From assembly GCF_001676385.1 (NCBI RefSeq), contig NZ_LYVJ01000002.1:248001-312000 (forward strand): a stretch of 64,000 nucleotides of DNA, written 5' to 3'. The position numbers and the translations under genes are program-made. Position 1 is the first letter of the stretch; the number at the start of each line of letters is the position of its first letter. Positions 53,815-61,120 of the stretch are shown one piece after another. This DNA comes from Stenotrophomonas maltophilia. GTDB taxonomy: Bacteria; Pseudomonadota; Gammaproteobacteria; Xanthomonadales; Xanthomonadaceae. The notes below the pieces were generated by a model that made no database searches, was not told the DNA's origin, and worked only from the letters and a program-made list of their open reading frames with translations.

Positions 53815-55158
53815 TCAGCCCCCTTTGGCAACGGCAGGGGGTTCCGCCCCCGGCAACTGCAATACTGCCCGCAGGCCACCGCCTTCGCGGTTGTGCAGCT
53901 GCAGCGAGCCTCCCAGCGACTGCGCCAGCTGGACGGCGATGGCCAGCCCCAGGCCGGTGCCTCCGGTATCGCGGTTGCGCGAACCTTCCAGCCTGTGGAA
54001 CGGAGCCAGCACGGCCTGCAGCTGGTCCTCGGGAATGCCCGGGCCACGATCGGAAACGCTGATCCATGCCTTGCCGGCCTGATCGCGCCCGGCAGCGACC
54101 TCGGCCGAACCGGCATAGCGCAGCGCGTTGTCGATCAGGTTGCCCACCACGCGCCGCAGGGGCTGCGGCCAGGTCCGCACGATCATTCCCTGCGCGGCGC
54201 CACCACTGACCGGCTTGCCCATGTCCTCATAGTCACCGACCACACTGGCCAGGAACGCCGCCAGGTCCATCGATACCGGCACGCCACTGGCCACATGGCT
54301 GCTGCGCGCATAGGCCACGCCTTCGCGCACCAGCTGCCCGAGGTGGTCCAGGTCCGCCAGCAGGCGCTGCTGGGTGTTGTCTTCCGGCAGGCTCTCCACC
54401 CGCAGCTTCATGCGCGTGATGGGCGTCTGCAGGTCATGCGAGATCGCGGCCAGGATCTGCAGGCGCTCACTGACGTGGCCGCGGATGCGTGCCTGCAGTG
54501 CATTGAGCGCGGCCGCCGCCCTCCCCACCTCCGCCGGACCATCTTCGGGCAGTGCGGGGCCCTCGCTGCCAGGCTGCAGGTGCTCCACCGCGCGCGACAG
54601 CTGCTTCAAGGGGCGCAATGCCAACCGCACCGCCAGCCAGGCGCACCCCAGCAGCAGCGCCAGCTGCACCAGCAGCACGACGGGAAGCCAGCGCGCCAGC
54701 GGCAGGCCGGACGGGGTGACTTCGATGGTCAGCGGCGTACCGTCATGCAGGCGCAGTTCGACCTCGAACCGCTCAGGCAGGCGCGCCAGCTGGCGCGCCT
54801 GCAGCGGATAGCGATGCTGCAGGCTGTCGTCGATGATGGCGGTGACCTGGCGTGCACGGTCGGTCTCCAGCGCAGGACCGGCCAGCGCCGGGCGCAACAG
54901 ATAACGGTAGGTACGCCGCTCCAGCCGCGGAATCCAGGCCTCGCGCTGGTCCGCCGGCAGGTGCTCGAGCAGCGCGACACTGACGGCGACGTCCTCATCC
55001 AGGTTGCGCAGCATCATGCTGCGGGTGGACTGGTAGCGCTCGAAGAACAACAGCCCGAACGACAGGGCGTGGGCCAGCGCCAATCCCCCCAGCAGCAGCA
55101 GCAGCAGGCGCGCCGACAACGTGCGCGGCCACCACGGAAGCCATGCGCCGCCGGTCAT
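53815..55158 (-). CDS. Sensor histidine kinase of the OmpR-type two-component pair
   Basis: A 447-residue kinase with an N-terminal helix (LSARLLLLLLGGLALAHALS), a ~130-residue periplasmic sensor region, and a second helix (~155-180). Then come HAMP, HisKA with His241 in AAISHDLQTPITRM, and HATPase (NLIDNALRYA, DRGPGIP, GGTGLGLAI). Its ATG overlaps the response-regulator stop (ATGA). It is the last gene of a leftward hydrolase-redoxin-regulator-kinase string facing the RiPP cluster. The stimulus is unknown; copper or redox stress is a guess from context. Confidence 0.93.
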   Translation of the reverse strand: MTGGAWLPWWPRTLSARLLLLLLGGLALAHALSFGLLFFERYQSTRSMMLRNLDEDVAVSVALLEHLPADQREAWIPRLERRTYRYLLRPALAGPALETDRARQVTAIIDDSLQHRYPLQARQLARLPERFEVELRLHDGTPLTIEVTPSGLPLARWLPVVLLVQLALLLGCAWLAVRLALRPLKQLSRAVEHLQPGSEGPALPEDGPAEVGRAAAALNALQARIRGHVSERLQILAAISHDLQTPITRMKLRVESLPEDNTQQRLLADLDHLGQLVREGVAYARSSHVASGVPVSMDLAAFLASVVGDYEDMGKPVSGGAAQGMIVRTWPQPLRRVVGNLIDNALRYAGSAEVAAGRDQAGKAWISVSDRGPGIPEDQLQAVLAPFHRLEGSRNRDTGGTGLGLAIAVQLAQSLGGSLQLHNREGGGLRAVLQLPGAEPPAVAKGG

Positions 55159-55895
55159 TCGTCCGGCCCCAGCAAGCGTACCGGCACACTGAACACATAG
55201 CCTTCGCTGCGTACGGTCTTGATGTAGATCGGTTCACGCGCGTCGTCGCCCAGGCGCTGCCGCACGCGGCTGACCAGCAGGTCGATCGAGCGGTCGAACA
55301 GCTCCGCATCGCGGCCCTGGGTGAGGCTGAGCAGCTGGTCGCGGCTGAGCACGCGGTTGGCGTGGTCAAGGAACACGCGGAGCAGGCGGAACTCGGCGCC
55401 GCTCAGCGGGTGGGCGGTGTCCTGGGCATCCAGCAGATGGCGTGCAGTGGTGTCCAGGCGCCAGTCGCCGAACGCCAGCTGGCGGCCGGCCTCGCTCACC
55501 TGCAGGTTCGGCGGCAGCATCTGCGTGCGCCGGATCACCGCGTTGATGCGCGCCAGCAGCTCGCGCGAGGAAAAGGGCTTGGTCACGTAGTCGTCCGCCC
55601 CCATCTCCAGGCCGATGATGCGATCGGTCTCATCATCGCGGGCCGTCAGCAGCACCACCGGCACCGCCCGATGCTTGCCGGCACGCAGGTTGCGGCACAG
55701 GCTCAGGCCATCCTCGCCCGGCATCATCACGTCCAGCACCACCAGGTCCACCGCATGCGTGTCCAGCAGCGTACGCATCGCCCGGCCACCGTCGGCCTGG
55801 CTCACGCGCAGGCCGTTGCGCTGCAGGTAGTCGGCCAGCATCTGGCGGATCTCGCTGTCATCGTCGACGACAAGGATGTGCGGTACGTGGTTCAT
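55155..55895 (-). CDS. OmpR-family response regulator
   Basis: A 246-residue regulator: receiver domain with phospho-acceptor Asp55 (VVLDVMMPGEDG) and Lys in DYVTKPFSSRE. The C-terminal winged helix contains LSGAEFRLLRVFLDHANRVL and FDRSIDLLVSRVRQRLG. Start taken at ATG 55895 (MNHVPHILVVDDD); ATG 55922 would add nine residues. OmpR-type winged helices bind tandem direct repeats with ~10-11-bp spacing, which matches the three TGTA repeats at 57367-57477. That makes it the prime candidate controller of both divergent blocks. Confidence 0.94.
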   Translation of the reverse strand: MNHVPHILVVDDDSEIRQMLADYLQRNGLRVSQADGGRAMRTLLDTHAVDLVVLDVMMPGEDGLSLCRNLRAGKHRAVPVVLLTARDDETDRIIGLEMGADDYVTKPFSSRELLARINAVIRRTQMLPPNLQVSEAGRQLAFGDWRLDTTARHLLDAQDTAHPLSGAEFRLLRVFLDHANRVLSRDQLLSLTQGRDAELFDRSIDLLVSRVRQRLGDDAREPIYIKTVRSEGYVFSVPVRLLGPDE

Positions 55896-55952
55896 CGCGT
55901 TCTCGATGGAGGCAAGGGACAAGGCCGCGCGGCGCGGCCATGGTAGCGCGGC

Positions 55953-56495
55953 TCAGGGGCTGGCCAGCAGGCGCTGGATCTCGCTTTCGGTACGTGCATA
56001 GTCGCCCTCGCCGTAATGGCGGTAGGCCACCCGTCCGTGCCGGTCGAGCAGGTACAGCGCCGGCCAGAAGCGGTTGCCCCAGGCGTTCCAGATCCGGTAC
56101 TGGTTGTCCTGCACCACCGGCCAGGTGACATCCAATCGTGCGATGGCCTTGCGCACGTTGCCGGGCAGCCCTTCATAGGCGAACTCCGGCGTATGCACGC
56201 CGATCACCTTCAGGCCCCGTGCCGCGTAGCGCTCGTTCCACCGATGAACGTAAGGCGCCACGTTGAGGCAGTTGCTGCAGCTGTAGGTCCAGAACTCCAC
56301 CAGCACCACCTGGCCGCGCAGTTGCTGCAACGCAATCGGTGGGCTGTTGTGCCAGGGCCCCCCGCCTTCGAATCCCATCGCGGGCGCGTCGACCGGCTGT
56401 GCACTGGCGTTCGCGCTGGGCCAGGCCAGCAACACTGCCGCGCCGCCCAGCAGGCCCAGCAGCAGCGGCAGCGCATAAGCACGAAGCGCGGCCAC
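55953..56495 (-). CDS. Exported thioredoxin-fold (TlpA/redoxin-type) protein
   Basis: A 180-residue protein with an N-terminal signal or anchor (LLLGLLGGAAVLLAWPSANA). The thioredoxin fold carries Cys73 and Cys76 in EFWTYSCSNCLNVAPYVHRW (CSNC motif), resembling the C-terminal domain of DipZ and TlpA-like proteins. Periplasmic disulphide exchange is probable. It starts three bases after the hydrolase gene and is cotranscribed with the two-component genes. In this context it could keep the cysteines of the RiPP precursor reduced, or protect against copper-driven oxidation; this is inference. Confidence 0.85.
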   Translation of the reverse strand: MAALRAYALPLLLGLLGGAAVLLAWPSANASAQPVDAPAMGFEGGGPWHNSPPIALQQLRGQVVLVEFWTYSCSNCLNVAPYVHRWNERYAARGLKVIGVHTPEFAYEGLPGNVRKAIARLDVTWPVVQDNQYRIWNAWGNRFWPALYLLDRHGRVAYRHYGEGDYARTESEIQRLLASP

Positions 56496-56498
56496 TGC

Positions 56499-57293
56499 TC
56501 AGCCCCCCTGCTCGGCCAGCGGCAGCTCCGCCGGCTTCACGCCCGCCGCCTCCAGGATGCTGTCGGCCACCTGCGCCGGATGCGAAAGCAACGACACGTG
56601 GCTGCTGCCGATCGACTGCAGCTGCGCGCCAATGCGGCGCGCCGTGGCGGCCTGCAACTGTGGCGACAACATGCGATCGTCGCGGCTGAGCACATACCAG
56701 CTCGGCTTGCTGCGCCATGCAGCGCTGGTGACCTTCTCACCGAGGGCCGACGCCTTCAACGGCACTTGCGTGCTGTACAGCAACGCAGCCGACTTCTTCA
56801 TCACATCCGGCGCGAAGTCCCGGGCGATGGACTCGGCCGGCAATGTCAGGTAGCCGTCCTTCTCCTGCAGGCGGGCCAGGCCCGGGCTGGCCGGAAAACC
56901 TTCGCCCTGCTGCGCCGACGACTGGCCGGCATCCGGTGCGAACGCGGCCACGTATACCAGCGCCTGCACCTTAGGGTCGTTGCCCGCCTCGGTGATGACC
57001 GTGCCACCCCAGCTATGGCCGACCAGCACCACCTTGCCGGGCGCGGCGGCGATGGCGCGACGGGTGGCGGCTACGTCGTCGGCCAGCGAAGTGAGCGGAT
57101 TCTGCACCGCCACCGCCGGCAGCTTCCAGTCATGCAGGGTGCTGATGACCTTGTTCCAGCTGGAGCCGTCGGCGAAGGCGCCGTGCACGAGGATCACCGT
57201 GGGCGGCGCGTCGGCCACGGCCTGCGCCGCGAAGGCGGGAGAAGCAGCGCCGGCAGCGACGAGAGCGGCGACAAGCAACGAGGTACGGATCAT
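56499..57293 (-). CDS. Exported alpha/beta hydrolase
   Basis: A 264-residue protein with a signal peptide (ends SPAFAA). Motifs: [18 protein letters not shown] (oxyanion), the nucleophile elbow GHSWGG with Ser94, and a late His in [10 protein letters not shown]. Family members of this length include plant-type esterase/hydroxynitrile lyase-like hydrolases and haloperoxidase-like enzymes. The substrate is unknown. First gene of the leftward block that diverges from the RiPP genes. ATG 57293 chosen: only this start yields the signal peptide. Confidence 0.85.
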
Positions 57294-57366
57294 GGGTGGC
57301 ACTCCGGGTTGGGAGTGGCCATTTCCGCTTGTGGGTGTATCGCTGCTGTTTCTCCGCCACGCGAAG

Positions 57367-57477
57367 TTGTACCGGAATGTACGGCGCGGCGGGGTTCCTA
57401 CAGTTCGATACATTCGCCCGCCGGGCATCGCCCACGGGACGCTGCCCACGGCGGCTTTGTATCCGACTGTACCGAAC
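57367..57477. promoter_or_regulatory. Three TGTA tandem-repeat sites, likely response-regulator operators
   Basis: Site A: TTGTACCGGAATGTACGG (57367-57384), TGTAC repeated with exact 10-bp period. Site B, minus strand: CGAATGTATCGAACTGTAGG (57395-57414), TGTA repeated with 10-bp period. Site C: TTTGTATCCGACTGTACCG (57456-57474), again a 10-bp period. Consensus TGTAYC-N4-TGTA(C/G). Three matching direct repeats in one divergent promoter, next to an OmpR-type regulator gene, strongly suggest its binding sites. Confidence 0.75.
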
Positions 57478-57510
57478 CCCGCCTGCACCACAGTCGCTGA
57501 CAAAACCCCG

Positions 57511-57529
57511 GGCAACGGCACACGTTGCC
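57511..57529. promoter_or_regulatory. Inverted repeat GGCAACG/CGTTGCC upstream of doxX gene
   Basis: Seven-base arms with spacer GCACA, 57 bases ahead of the DoxX ATG. Could be an operator or a leader hairpin; role unknown. Confidence 0.4.
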
Positions 57530-57585
57530 GATACCTGCATCGCCTGCAATGGCCCCCATCGACCACTGGCCCGCAGGACACCACC

Positions 57586-58230
57586 ATGATCAGCACCGCC
57601 TCTTCCATGTATACCCCCCGCCTGGACGCCGTCGGCCGCTGGCTCTCGCCATTGGCATTGCGCACCCTGCTGGCCTGGGAGTTCTTTGAATCCGGCCGCG
57701 AGAAGCTGGGCGGCCAGAACTGGTTCGCCGACCTGGAAGGTCGCTTCCCGTTCCCATTCTCCGCCCTGCCCGCGTCGCTGAACTGGCAGCTGGCCACCTG
57801 GCTGGAACTGGTGGGGGCGGTGATGCTGCTGGTGGGCCTGGCCACGCGCTCGGTCGCTTACATCTTCTGGGTCCTCACCATCGTCGCCATCGCCGCCGTG
57901 CACTGGCCCGACCAGTGGAACAGCCTCGGCGAACTCTGGCAGGGCTACGCAATCACCGACCAGGGCTACGGCAACTTCAAGCTGCCGCTGCTGTTCCTGG
58001 CCATGCTCCTGCCGCTGATCCTCAATGGCGGCGGCGCACTCAGCCTGGACCGCCTGCTGGCCGGCCCGCAGCGTGCCGAGGCCGGCAACGACGGCCTCGG
58101 CTGGGGCGTGAGCCTGATCGCTCTGCTGTTGCCGGTTGCCGCGCTGCTGCCTGGCATCGGCTTGGGCGGCGCCCTGCTCGGCGGTGCACTGCTGCTGGGC
58201 CACGCGCTGCGCCGTCGTCGCACCACCTGA
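57586..58230 (+). CDS. DoxX family membrane protein of the MNIO RiPP cluster
   Basis: A 214-residue inner-membrane protein with about five helices. The N-terminus ([20 protein letters not shown]) and the second-helix [20 protein letters not shown] match DoxX. DoxX-type proteins recur in MNIO RiPP clusters (HvfD position) and may handle electrons or the mature product, though no activity is proven. First gene of the rightward block; ATG 57586 ([18 protein letters not shown]). The precursor gene follows 100 bases on. Confidence 0.88.
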
Positions 58231-58329
58231 TCCGCTTCGCCCCTTCCCGCGCTTCTTCCCTTCGTTTCCGTCGCCTTCAAGCGGCGTCCATCCCGCACGC
58301 CTGGCGTGCCATTCCAAGGAGTCATCACC

Positions 58330-58806
58330 ATGTCCGTCTCGACCAAGAACCCCCCCTCCTCCCGCCTGCCGCGCATCGGTGCCATCGGCATCGCCCTGGC
58401 CAGTGGCCTGCTGCTGGCCGGACAGGCCGCAGCGATCCAGCCGCTGGCGATCAGCGCCGTAGCCACGAGCGCCACCGCCGAAGGCAAGTGCGGTGAAGGC
58501 AAGTGCGGGGCCAACAAGACCGCTACCCGCAAGCCCGCCGGCAAGGCCCAGGTGGCCGAAGGCCAGTGCGGCGAAGGCAAGTGTGGTGACGCTTCGTTCG
58601 CCCGCACCGACCGCGACCATGACGGCAAGGTCTCGCGTGCCGAATTCAACGCCGTAGCCGCCGCACGTGCCGCCGAATTCGACCGCATCGACACCGACCA
58701 TGACGGCTACATCACCGAGCAGGAAGCACACGACTACCTGCGCAGCGTCTACACCGCCAACGGCAAGCCGATGCCGAAGGGCCTGTTCTCCCGCGTTGCC
58801 GACTGA
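58330..58806 (+). CDS. Exported RiPP precursor: two EGKCG cysteine modules fused to two EF-hands
   Basis: A 158-residue protein. Signal peptide 1-35 ([16 protein letters not shown]). Module 1 [10 protein letters not shown] at 51-60 and module 2 [10 protein letters not shown] at 77-86 carry all four cysteines of the protein (54, 59, 80, 85). Two EF-hand loops follow, [12 protein letters not shown] (94-105) and [12 protein letters not shown] (121-132). EGKCG cysteines in Hvf/bufferin-type precursors are converted by DUF692 enzymes into copper-binding heterocycles. A core-plus-EF-hand fusion points to combined copper and calcium binding. ATG 58330 has AAGGAG eight bases ahead; the in-frame 58306 ATG does not. 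Confidence 0.88.
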
Positions 58807-58818
58807 GCGACCGCCCCC

Positions 58819-58841
58819 GGCGCCGCCTTGGCGGCGGCGCC
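58819..58841 (+). terminator. Hairpin between precursor and MNIO genes
   Basis: GGCGCCGCC/GGCGGCGCC stem with five-base loop just after the precursor stop and before the MNIO ribosome site. No T tract. It may act as a leaky terminator or as a 3' stabiliser, giving more precursor mRNA than enzyme mRNA. Confidence 0.5.
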
Positions 58842-58861
58842 CTCTTCCTGGAGCATCCGCC

Positions 58862-59707
58862 ATGTCCCTGCCCCTCCCGCCTGACAGCGCCGGCCTCGGC
58901 CTCCGCCGCGGCCTGATCGACGAGCTGCTCACGATGCCGGCGAAGGCCGTCGACTTCCTCGAGTGTTCGCCGGACAACTGGATCGGTGTCGGTGGCGCAC
59001 ACGGCGCCGCGCTGCGCCAGCTGAGCGAGCGCCACCGCCTGACCTGCCACGGCCTGTCGCTGTCGCTGGGCGGCCCGGATCCACTGGACCGCACGCTGCT
59101 GGAACAGACCCGCGCCTTCCTCGACCTGCACCAGGTACAGCTGTACAGCGAGCACCTGAGCTACTGCGCCGCCGGTGGCCATGTCTACGACCTGCTGCCG
59201 CTGCCGTTCACCGCCGAGGCGGTGCGCCATGTCGCCGGCCGCATCGCGCAGGTGCAGGATGCGCTGGGCCGCCGCATCGCCGTGGAGAACATTTCGTACT
59301 ACGCGGTTGCCGGCGCGGAGATGAGCGAGATCGAGTTCATCAACGCCGTGCTCGACGAAGCCGACTGCGACCTGCTGCTGGACGTCAACAATGTCTTCGT
59401 CAATGCCTGCAACAACGGCTACGACGCCTTCGAGTTCCTGGCCCGCGTCCCGGCCCAGCGCGTCGCCTCGCTGCACGTGGCCGGGCATTTCGACGAGGAC
59501 GACGGCTTCAAGATCGACACCCACGGCGCACCGGTGAAAGGCGTGGTCTGGGCACTGCTGCGCGAGGCCTACGCCCGGGTGGGTGTGCGCCCGACCCTGC
59601 TGGAGCGTGACTTCAACTTCCCGCCATTGGCCGAACTGCTGGCCGAGGTCGGGCAGATCCGCCAGGCGCAGGCCGACGTGCTGCTGCCCGAGGTGGCCCA
59701 TGGTTGA
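58862..59707 (+). CDS. DUF692 multinuclear non-heme iron oxidase (MNIO), RiPP maturase
   Basis: A 281-residue TIM-barrel enzyme of the DUF692 family (MbnB, TglH, HvfB and BufB relatives). Putative iron ligands are conserved: His63 ([10 protein letters not shown]), Glu97-His98 (SEHLSY), Glu142-Asn143 (VENISYY), Asp174 and Asn177 ([10 protein letters not shown]), His205/209 (LHVAGH), Asp219/His221 (IDTHG) and Glu248/Asp250 (LLERDFNFP). It should oxidatively modify the cysteines of the adjacent precursor. ATG 58862 has a GGAG site. Its last eight bases overlap the DUF2063 gene. Confidence 0.93.
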
Positions 59708-60479
59708 GTCACTGGCCACACTGCAACGGCGCTGGGCCGACCATGTCCGCGATCCGTCGCGGCCGGCGCCCGCTGGAATCGATGAGCGGCGCCTGGCGGT
59801 CTATCGCCGCCTGTGCATCGACAGCCTGGACAGCCTGCTCGCCGGCAGCCTGCCGCGCCTGCAGGAACAGCTGGGAGCCCCGCGCTGGCGCGACGTGGTC
59901 GAGCGCTACTACGCGTGCCATGCCTGCCATACGCCGCTGTTCCCGCAGATCGCCGGTGAGTTCGCCGGCTGGCTGGCGCTGCAGGAGCAGATCGCGCTGC
60001 CGGGCTGGGCGGCCGAGCTGGCGCACTACGAAAGCACGCAGCAGGCCCTGTACATCCAGGCACCCGCCACCTGCCCGCCCCTGCAACGCGCACCGGCAGC
60101 CGGTGACCTGCTGGCCGTGTCGGCGCAAGTGCGCGTGCTGGGCTACCAGTGGCCGGTACACGAGGACGTCGTCCTGGACGGTGTCCGCGCCGCTACGCCC
60201 ACGCTGCTGCTGATGCGGCGCCTGCCGGATTTCAGCCTGCAGGTCGACGCATTGGCCCCGCTGGCCTATTCGCTGCTTTCGGCTTTCGGCGATGACGGCA
60301 TGCGCGTGGACCACGCCCTCCAGGCCCTGGCCGACGCGCATGGCGTGGCGGCTGTTGAACTCCGGACCGCGTGCGCACCGCTGCTCGCGCAGATGTGCTC
60401 GGCCGGTGTGCTGGTGCCGGTGTGGGATCGCCGGCCAGACGCCGGCCCTGCCCGAACTTCTCCTTCATCGAGGGCCTGA
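59700..60479 (+). CDS. DUF2063 partner protein of the MNIO (BufC/HvfC type)
   Basis: A 259-residue protein. The N-terminal domain ([54 protein letters not shown]) matches DUF2063, the obligate partner of DUF692 enzymes in Hvf and bufferin systems. It is thought to present the precursor to the enzyme. The C-terminal half (~100-259) is more variable. Start overlaps the MNIO stop by eight bases, so the pair is made together. Confidence 0.9.
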
Positions 60480-60481
60480 CC

Positions 60482-61120
60482 ATGACGACTTCCATTCCTT
60501 CCTTCCTGCACGGGTGGCGCTTGTTCGTTGCCCTCGCCGTGATGCTGATGGCGTTCGCGCTGGCAGCCTTCGCCCTGCAACCCGACGTGGTCGAAGGCAG
60601 CCGTGCGGCGATCCGGGTCACCGCACGCACATCGTTCCTGCTGTTCCTGGTGGCGTTCACGGCGTCGTCGTTCGCCAGCCTGCTGCCCGGGCCATTCACT
60701 CGATTCCTGCTCCGCGAACGCCGCATCGTCGGCCTTTCCTTCGCGTTCTCGCACCTGCTGCATGCAATCGCGATCACAACCTTCGGCATCCTCAACCCGG
60801 CGTTCTGGCCGGCGCGCTCCGCGTTGGCCAATGCGCCGGGCACGGTCGGTTACATCGCCATCCTGGCACTGGCGATCACCTCGCACCGAGGCATTGCGCG
60901 GCGCATGGGGCCGACGGCATGGCGTCGCCTGCACGTGACCGGTATGTGGATCATCGCGGCGGTATTCACCTATTCGTACTTCAAGCGCGTGCCGGGCAAC
61001 TTCTGGTATGCGGTTCCCTCTGCACTGCTGTTCACCGCCTTCGTGGTGCGCTGGATCGCCAAGCGCGCGCAGTCGCTGCGCCGCAGCGCCCACGTCCGTC
61101 CTTCCCTGCCGGCGGCCTGA
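60482..61120 (+). CDS. Ferric-reductase-like transmembrane protein
   Basis: A 212-residue membrane protein with about six helices. Helix patterns with paired histidines (FSHLLHAIAIT and RLHVTGMWIIAAV) resemble the heme-ligating core of ferric-reductase-like/MsrQ-type proteins. No flavin or NAD domain is fused. It starts two bases after the DUF2063 stop and so belongs to the RiPP block. It could reduce Cu(II) to Cu(I) or feed electrons to the periplasm; this role is inferred. Confidence 0.78.
   Translation: MTTSIPSFLHGWRLFVALAVMLMAFALAAFALQPDVVEGSRAAIRVTARTSFLLFLVAFTASSFASLLPGPFTRFLLRERRIVGLSFAFSHLLHAIAITTFGILNPAFWPARSALANAPGTVGYIAILALAITSHRGIARRMGPTAWRRLHVTGMWIIAAVFTYSYFKRVPGNFWYAVPSALLFTAFVVRWIAKRAQSLRRSAHVRPSLPAA

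Follow-up and report, generated by a model that had tools for sequence, protein, structure and literature searches.

The 64,000-nucleotide stretch of Stenotrophomonas maltophilia DNA analyzed here (the window; contig NZ_LYVJ01000002.1 of assembly GCF_001676385.1, positions 248,001 to 312,000) contains a locus in which the gene for an exported EF-hand protein stands beside those for an MNIO (DUF692) enzyme and its DUF2063 partner, as in a cluster for a ribosomally synthesized and post-translationally modified peptide (RiPP), and in which a divergent operon encodes a two-component system. On balance, we read this locus as the Stenotrophomonas version of the Pseudomonas aeruginosa PA4101–PA4107 (bfmRS/efhP) region, that is, as a BfmRS-controlled, Sec-exported thiooxazole metallophore of the captophorin type (Hvf/Buf_EGKCG) whose C-terminal EF-hand pair would fold with periplasmic Ca2+. 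By analogy with characterized homologs, the four cysteines of this exported, predicted calcium-binding protein probably become copper-binding rings. The parts of this reading differ in firmness: what kind of system this is can be taken as near certain, thiooxazole chemistry is likely from the homologs, and copper is probably the physiological metal. The observations made here concern the identity of the genes, the conservation of both operons, the regulatory boxes, the co-occurrence of core motifs and MNIO, the sequence of the EF-hands, and the predicted fold of the precursor.

An earlier note on this DNA had proposed the gene order DoxX, precursor, MNIO, DUF2063 at 57586–60479; Pfam and NCBIfam bear it out, and all four genes lie on the plus strand. 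That span holds for the four genes and is too short for the locus, to which the MsrQ-like gene, directly downstream of the DUF2063 gene and closing the plus-strand operon, and the divergent operon at 53815–57293 also belong. The features, in window coordinates, are as follows.

53815–55158, minus strand: BfmS-like sensor histidine kinase, divergent operon (NCBIfam EnvZ/RstB-type matches below cut-off)
55155–55895, minus strand: BfmR-like OmpR-family response regulator, divergent operon (OmpR/RstA-type matches below cut-off)
55953–56495, minus strand: thioredoxin-like protein of the TlpA/ResA type, CxxC motif present (below the cut-off of the ResA model, E 2.8e-15)
56499–57293, minus strand: alpha/beta hydrolase, gene 1 of the divergent operon (weak alpha/beta-hydrolase matches, all below cut-off)
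57399–57412, plus strand: BfmR-type box TACAGTTCGATACA, an exact TACAGTNNGATACA site
57458–57471, minus strand: second, inverted BfmR-type box TACAGTCGGATACA, an exact site in a conserved footprint
57586–58230, plus strand: DoxX/HvfX family membrane protein (PF07681 E 2.4e-18; NCBIfam HvfX 137.4 bits, cut-off 80)
58330–58806, plus strand: EfhP-type RiPP precursor of 158 amino acids, EGKCG cores and EF-hand pair (Pfam and NCBIfam)
58330–58434, plus strand: predicted Sec signal peptide, residues 1–35 (by eye from the sequence)
58480–58509, plus strand: core module 1, residues 51–60 (C54, C59)
58558–58587, plus strand: core module 2, residues 77–86 (C80, C85)
58609–58644, plus strand: EF-hand loop 1, residues 94–105
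58690–58725, plus strand: EF-hand loop 2, residues 121–132
58862–59707, plus strand: MNIO maturase, HvfB type (PF05114 E 6.2e-102; NCBIfam HvfB 409.8 bits, cut-off 360)
59700–60479, plus strand: DUF2063/HvfC partner, PME1 type (Pfam E 1.6e-17 and NGO1945_C; NCBIfam HvfC 179.8 bits, cut-off 142)
60482–61120, plus strand: MsrQ-like/ferric-reductase-like membrane protein, PA4103 counterpart (PF01794 E 6e-9, over cut-off; NCBIfam MsrQ model below cut-off)

The precursor, whose tandem Lys-Cys 5-mers lie upstream of the MNIO, matches the NCBIfam model KCGExKCG_twice with 38.8 bits (cut-off 19.5) and does not reach the full-length HvfA model (29.7 bits vs. a cut-off of 95). It has four cysteines in all (C54, C59, C80, and C85) in two tandem modules, as the earlier note had it; the motifs, all taken there as EGKCG, are three EGKCG and, in third place, one EGQCG, which is kept in 20/20 precursors of this locus type within the genus. 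Read by eye, the N-terminus resembles a Sec signal whose A-x-A site follows residue 35, and a signal peptide has been predicted in print for EfhP. Relatives often keep a QPLAQGYMLAA-like segment between the signal peptide and the first core (residues 36–50 of the precursor), possibly a recognition site for the DUF2063 partner; the segment is decayed in the Stenotrophomonas clade to which the window belongs.

Residues Arg15, Arg16, Asp249, and Phe250 of the MNIO FonB have been tied to Lys-Cys (EGKCG) substrates (Gadgil 2026, PMC13097082), and they correspond to R15, R16, D250, and F251 of the window MNIO; together with the NCBIfam scores above cut-off, this upholds the assignment to the Hvf kind of MNIO-type RiPP cluster, its EGKCG precursor being fused to EF-hands. 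Among 123 EGKCG-associated MNIOs, R15 and R16 are found in 122/122 each and D250 in 123/123. Several His, Glu, Asp, and Asn positions, the likely metal ligands, are also invariant across these proteins. The window enzyme scores 270.2 bits against the BufB model of NCBIfam, below the cut-off of 310, and its closest PDB sequence is 3bww (E 1e-70), followed by TglH and MbnB; the DUF2063 protein, which adjoins it as PME1 partner, matches 3dee (E 9e-4). The chemistry to be expected would be that of the EGKCG-type pair FonBC, which forms 5-thiooxazoles with the loss of four hydrogens per site, is active on two tandem EGKCG repeats and inactive on one, tolerates Ala, Arg, and Thr at the Lys position and is severely impaired by Phe and Glu there, and gives a product that binds copper (Gadgil 2026, PMC13097082). 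The window precursor, with its two tandem core pairs, may be compared with the two-repeat need of FonBC.

Behind the cores, the two canonical EF-hands announced by the earlier note are confirmed by Pfam (EF-hand_6, E 4.9e-10, EF-hand_1, EF-hand_5, and EF-hand_7 over their cut-offs, EF-hand_8 under) and by the loops, both of which have oxygen ligands at positions 1, 3, 5, 9, and 12. Their position C-terminal to the EGKCG cores makes the protein a precursor of the EfhP type (Buf_EGKCG/EF-hand). An AlphaFold2 model based on 25 alignment rows is confident for the EF pair (residues about 90–150), with pLDDT below 50 for residues 13–84, and its first EF helix comprises residues 88–93 only, straight after the core. 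In a Foldseek comparison with the PDB, EF-hand and calmodulin-type chains make up most of the best matches, of which none reaches E ≤ 0.001.

We compared 118 distinct EF-type precursors, of which 82 have all cores before the EF pair, like the window (type A, with two to eight cores), and 36 have cores on both sides (type B, including L151, which the loop regular expression had set as type C). The type B topology occurs at loci L024, L054–L064, L066, L072, L074–L076, L142–L151, and L153–L164 (L and G numbers denote our loci and genomes). The last core cysteine lies 9 residues from the first Ca2+ ligand in 82/82 type A precursors; in type B the distance is 6 in 23/35, 9 in 6/35, and 11–23 in 6/35. 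Taken alone, the fixed distance is weak evidence for a coupling between calcium and copper because the precursors are homologous, one of the two search patterns included CGD behind the core, and type B varies. In a tree of the MNIOs (104 of the 123 rows, after dropping rows at least 95% identical), one branch with an SH-aLRT support of 94 gathers 54/104 rows, namely all 51 type A, 2 type B, and L189, and includes the window together with Pseudomonas EfhP-type operons.

The loop regular expression presupposes Asp1 and an acidic residue at position 12 and so cannot show their conservation (it also missed loop 2 of L037 and L189, which have Gly at position 3, and L189 was thus labelled as having no EF-hands); ligands were counted from a profile alignment. 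Of the 137 core-bearing proteins that span both loops in this alignment, all have Asp1 in either loop and Glu12 in loop 1, and 136 have Glu12 in loop 2, the exception apparently reflecting an alignment shift. These counts bear on a first alternative, in which the product is purely a copper captophorin, the EF-hands merely aid its stability or export, and Ca2+ has no regulatory part. A paralogous operon of the same genome (G000:C2:46197) indeed keeps core, MNIO, DUF2063, and DoxX without EF-hands. EF-hands are likewise absent from 18 of the 25 core-bearing loci listed for the class (L063–L090), an MNIO being found in the fetched stretch in 10/18. Moreover, EF-hands are placed after the cores in type A and between cores in type B, and since both placements occur, their exact position is not essential. 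On the other hand, mere ballast would not require the invariance of the loop ligands, and we regard this alternative as unlikely.

Our reading of the locus as a modified, EF-hand-bearing captophorin is supported by the distribution of cores and enzymes. An MNIO like that of the window is present in 51/61 Stenotrophomonas genomes; in 20 of them its identity is at least 87%, the next best being 71%, and in 20/20 of these genomes it is accompanied by an EF-hand precursor with four or five cores. The locus type is thus found in 20/61 genomes and is no chance arrangement. Two named records, L091 (S. maltophilia), with a precursor 93% identical, and L092 (S. tumulicola), identify the genus as Stenotrophomonas. 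Precursor homologs without cores beside an MNIO, which that note had named as evidence against it, were not found among 30 MNIO-anchored loci of the genus: an EGxCG precursor is encoded in 28, and contig ends truncate the remaining two (L025 and L026), the genome of L025 having a core pattern 45 bases before the MNIO. Core-less EF-hand proteins recovered by the precursor searches (L077, L080, and L089) have no MNIO in the fetched stretch.

At the level of whole genomes, MNIO and tandem core are both present in 50 of the 61 Stenotrophomonas and both absent from 9; the remaining 2 have one without the other, in each case at a contig end. In Pseudomonas (119 genomes, the genus to which the P. mucoides genome belongs), an MNIO is present in 96, and the tandem core is found in 51/96 genomes with MNIO and in 0/23 without (Fisher 4.9e-7; three of the 23 were identified by elimination). 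We also traced 33 precursor loci without MNIO in the fetched stretch, 31 of EF type and 2 without recognizable EF-hands, out of 36 (L120, the second locus of the L118 species, L169, and L170 were left out). They come from 32 genomes, and an MNIO is found elsewhere in 32/32, against a background of 96/119; three of these loci (L100, L116, and L129) end less than 250 bases past the precursor, where a neighboring MNIO is possible, and the match in the L129 genome is a fragment at a contig end. Genomes G104, G251, G276, G097, and G136, from the family of the window, have an MNIO-less precursor locus and a complete operon elsewhere.

These distributions matter for a second alternative, in which the protein is an EfhP-like calcium sensor, the EF-hand pair does the work, and the cysteines function in unmodified form, perhaps in iron or redox sensing, as has been proposed for EfhP. 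The phenotypes of EfhP are reported to be Ca2+-dependent, the protein purified in a form that lacks the signal peptide binds Ca2+ with a change of shape, and iron sensing through its four EGKCG repeats has been suggested (PMC11559002). However, an unmodified sensor would need no modifying enzyme, and the tandem core was not found in MNIO-less genomes of the two genera, bar one contig-end case, and the traced precursors without a nearby MNIO come from genomes with an MNIO elsewhere in 32/32 cases. Furthermore, the EfhP that was studied was made in E. coli, with its signal peptide removed, and the part of the report available to us mentions no enzyme pair. We therefore consider that the sensor alternative, too, is improbable.

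EF-hand/EGKCG precursor genes without adjacent MNIO are those of L173, L175, L177, L179, and L180 and of Pseudomonas loci among L098–L134. The record entitled Bacillus subtilis SK7B5 (L168) includes an EGKCG operon like those of Stenotrophomonas, probably on a contaminating contig, and the Pseudomonas-like EF-type operons of L095 (Pantoea sp. Cy-639) and L126 (a Paucimonas metagenome-assembled genome) may reflect transfer, mislabelling, or contamination.

As to the metal bound by the EF-hands, the loops of the window precursor have neither the Pro at position 2 nor the Asp at position 9 of lanmodulin loops, and the 27 residues between their starts also set them apart. Lanthanide binding by lanmodulin-like EF-hands is thus a very remote prospect and was discarded: lanmodulin is among the few PDB and NCBIfam matches, but these are weak (PDB E 1.2e-4; NCBIfam LanM 20.9 bits vs. 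a cut-off of 135), and EfhP is reported to be Ca2+-selective.

The control of the captophorin-type locus by a BfmRS-like system is suggested by the divergent operon and by the DNA between the two operons. The set of hydrolase, thioredoxin-like protein, regulator, and kinase is present in 10/10 fetched loci (nine Stenotrophomonas and one other genus of the family), and in loci of Pseudomonas, Lysobacter, Steroidobacter, and Rheinheimera a kinase 49–59% identical adjoins a BfmR-like regulator. Between the two operons, footprinting revealed conserved blocks ahead of DoxX. The sequence TACAGTNNGATACA has exactly two copies in the 4.12 Mb genome, where base composition predicts 0.06, and both lie, inverted, in the shared intergenic region 57294–57585. 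It occurs in 19/20 genomes of the genus with the locus type, 18 of them with two sites, vs. 2/41 of the others. The latter two, G012 (L191) and G034 (L192), are Stenotrophomonas genomes without detected MNIO, and their single exact box adjoins a diverged regulator–kinase pair (56–57% and 41–43% identical).

The BfmR consensus of P. aeruginosa is TACAA-N3-GATACA (PMC8025907), and the two boxes upstream of the window operon fit it as candidate BfmR-type sites. In P. aeruginosa, BfmR has one of its three strongest sites at the promoter of efhP-PA4106-PA4105 and activates efhP more than any other gene (PMC8025907), and PA4103–PA4107 rise more than 10-fold on deletion of bfmS (PMC4148453); these genes encode, besides EfhP (PA4107), a ferric-reductase-like protein (PA4103), DoxX (PA4104), DUF2063 (PA4105), and DUF692 (PA4106) proteins (PMC4918941). 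By analogy, a BfmRS-like two-component system most likely switches the window locus on.

Outside Stenotrophomonas, a regulator 72–80% identical (best match) was found in 19 of 22 genomes searched, which derive from 23 loci chosen from 80 named, with L139 excluded; the query started two residues inside the gene (55889 vs. 55895). It is linked to the EF precursor in 10/19, nine sharing DNA with the precursor locus and one lying about 12 kb away (the 40-base overlap test for linkage also paired L214 with L091, which we disregarded as a short shared stretch). The EfhP-like locus L260 has a regulator 73% identical and a MsrQ-like gene 54% identical, the latter adjoining DoxX, and reproduces the PA4103–PA4106 layout. 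In G834, whose precursor equals the published EfhP loops at 23/24 positions, the precursor, MNIO, and DUF2063 genes are followed on the opposite strand by DoxX, MsrQ-like, kinase, and regulator genes; boxes precede the MsrQ-like gene and the regulator, and only GATACA half-sites were found before the precursor.

In the mechanism that we favor, an envelope signal would activate the BfmRS-like system, whose regulator would bind the two inverted boxes and drive both divergent operons. In the cytosol, the MNIO and DUF2063 proteins would turn each of the four cysteines in the two tandem modules into a 5-thiooxazole, with a loss of about 4 Da per residue and 16 Da altogether, and Sec would export the precursor while still unfolded. 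In the Ca2+-rich periplasm the EF-hand pair would then fold, leaving a flexible thiol-bearing arm to bind Cu(I), and the DoxX, MsrQ-like, and thioredoxin-like proteins, as a supply of reducing power, plausibly hold copper and thiols reduced. Chemistry, Cu(I) binding, Ca2+ binding, and control by BfmR are here taken from homologs, and we infer the order of export and folding, the part of the redox genes, and the signal to the kinase. A Ca2+ concentration of 13.7 µM is well above free cytosolic Ca2+ and below free periplasmic Ca2+. EfhP binds Ca2+ at this concentration, selectively, and rearranges, according to published measurements; a value between the two compartments fits folding after export, with the proviso that it was obtained for E. 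coli-made protein without signal peptide.

A more far-reaching version makes the EF-hand pair a calcium-gated switch, unfolded in the cytosol for the enzyme and for Sec. Once folded in the periplasm, the pair would keep the last modified cysteine at 9 residues from the first Ca2+ ligand and in this way link calcium with the binding of Cu(I). In that case BfmRS would sense copper or thiol stress, and chronic cystic-fibrosis isolates in which it is activated would be defending themselves against copper. We put this version forward tentatively and hold it to be rather doubtful.

Several observations weigh against the favored reading. Gly6 of loop 1 is present in 123/137 precursors of the profile alignment and lost in 14, loop 1 of L138 is one residue short, and many Pseudomonas homologs without nearby MNIO retain a single tandem pair; because of these three points, Ca2+ binding may not be universal. 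Gln at the Lys position, as in EGQCG, is absent among the FonA variants described in the available part of PMC13097082. The co-occurrence tests ignore phylogeny. Linkage between regulator and EF precursor is seen in only the ten of 19 non-Stenotrophomonas genomes with the regulator, 3/22 genomes, with type B precursors, have no regulator at E ≤ 1e-60, and the related locus L189 has the divergent operon and no box by the pattern used.

Work on Pseudomonas already connects EfhP with BfmRS, and work on RiPPs connects it with MNIO clusters; the present locus closes this triangle, uniting all parts in one divergent operon pair with a private box pair. What our analysis adds is the connection of BfmRS to an MNIO RiPP operon. 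If this is correct, the published calcium measurements on EfhP were made on a protein without its natural modification, and the role of BfmRS in chronic infection becomes a question of copper; both consequences can be tested experimentally.

As regards known systems, the earlier note had identified the locus correctly and had seen in it a distinct variant of its family, a claim of novelty that fails because the EF-hand fusion is already in print. Antoine et al. (2025, PMC12452194) divide EGKCG precursors into repeat proteins and chimeras that end in two EF-hand_5 domains; they cite EfhP as one of the latter and consider a Ca2+ role possible. EfhP has been reported to share an operon with genes for DUF692 and DUF2063 proteins (Sarkisova et al. 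2014, PMC4053335), its four EGKCG repeats were noted in 2024 (PMC11559002), and 12% of almost 800 EfhP homologs were counted in Stenotrophomonas (Kayastha et al. 2022, PMC9132961). The window locus is thus another member of a described type, from which no defining difference was found: the type of Antoine et al. likewise has a short EGKCG domain after a predicted transmembrane helix or signal, two C-terminal EF-hand_5 domains, and a biosynthetic cluster of MNIO, DUF2063, and DoxX, with a ferric-reductase gene in small numbers. The words two-component, histidine kinase, and BfmR are absent from the main text of PMC12452194, and cores flanking the EF-hands on both sides are not mentioned in the portion of it available to us. 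In the open PMC literature searched, we found no statement that BfmRS acts most strongly on an MNIO metallophore operon, the matches listed included no paper pairing BfmR with MNIO, bufferin, captophorin, or oxazolin, and no paper treating DUF692, Stenotrophomonas, and copper jointly was found. Among the matches listed for BfmRS and copper, most were, by title, reviews or work on Acinetobacter, and the pairing of PA4106 with copper led no further; PMC4918941 describes PA4106 as "DUF 692" beside bfmRS, without a RiPP reading in its available part.

Among bufferins, membership in Buf1 was rejected, the precursor having no DUF2282 match in Pfam at E ≤ 1, and so was membership in Buf2 (6 or 12 cysteines), judged on the count of four cysteines alone. 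The captophorins fontiphorin, oxazolin (HvfA), and gonophorin (PMC13097082, whose main text does not contain the words EF-hand and calcium) resemble the window system in their EGKCG repeats, Arg-Arg/Asp-Phe MNIO, and PME1 partner. The second operon of the same genome (G000:C2:46197; L172) also has an EGKCG precursor, with six motifs, an MNIO 66% identical, DUF2063, and DoxX; it differs in that the precursor has no EF-hands and DoxX comes last. The closest counterpart is PA4101–PA4107, which shares EGKCG cores, MNIO, DUF2063, DoxX, a ferric-reductase-like gene, a BfmRS-type system, and BfmR-type boxes, the two EF-hand loops of EfhP (PA4107), including DSDHDGFISEAE, being nearly identical to those of the window. 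The Stenotrophomonas version differs from it in its arrangement: a single operon starts with DoxX and ends with the MsrQ-like gene, the regulator lies in a divergent operon with the hydrolase and the thioredoxin-like gene, and both boxes stand in one intergenic region.

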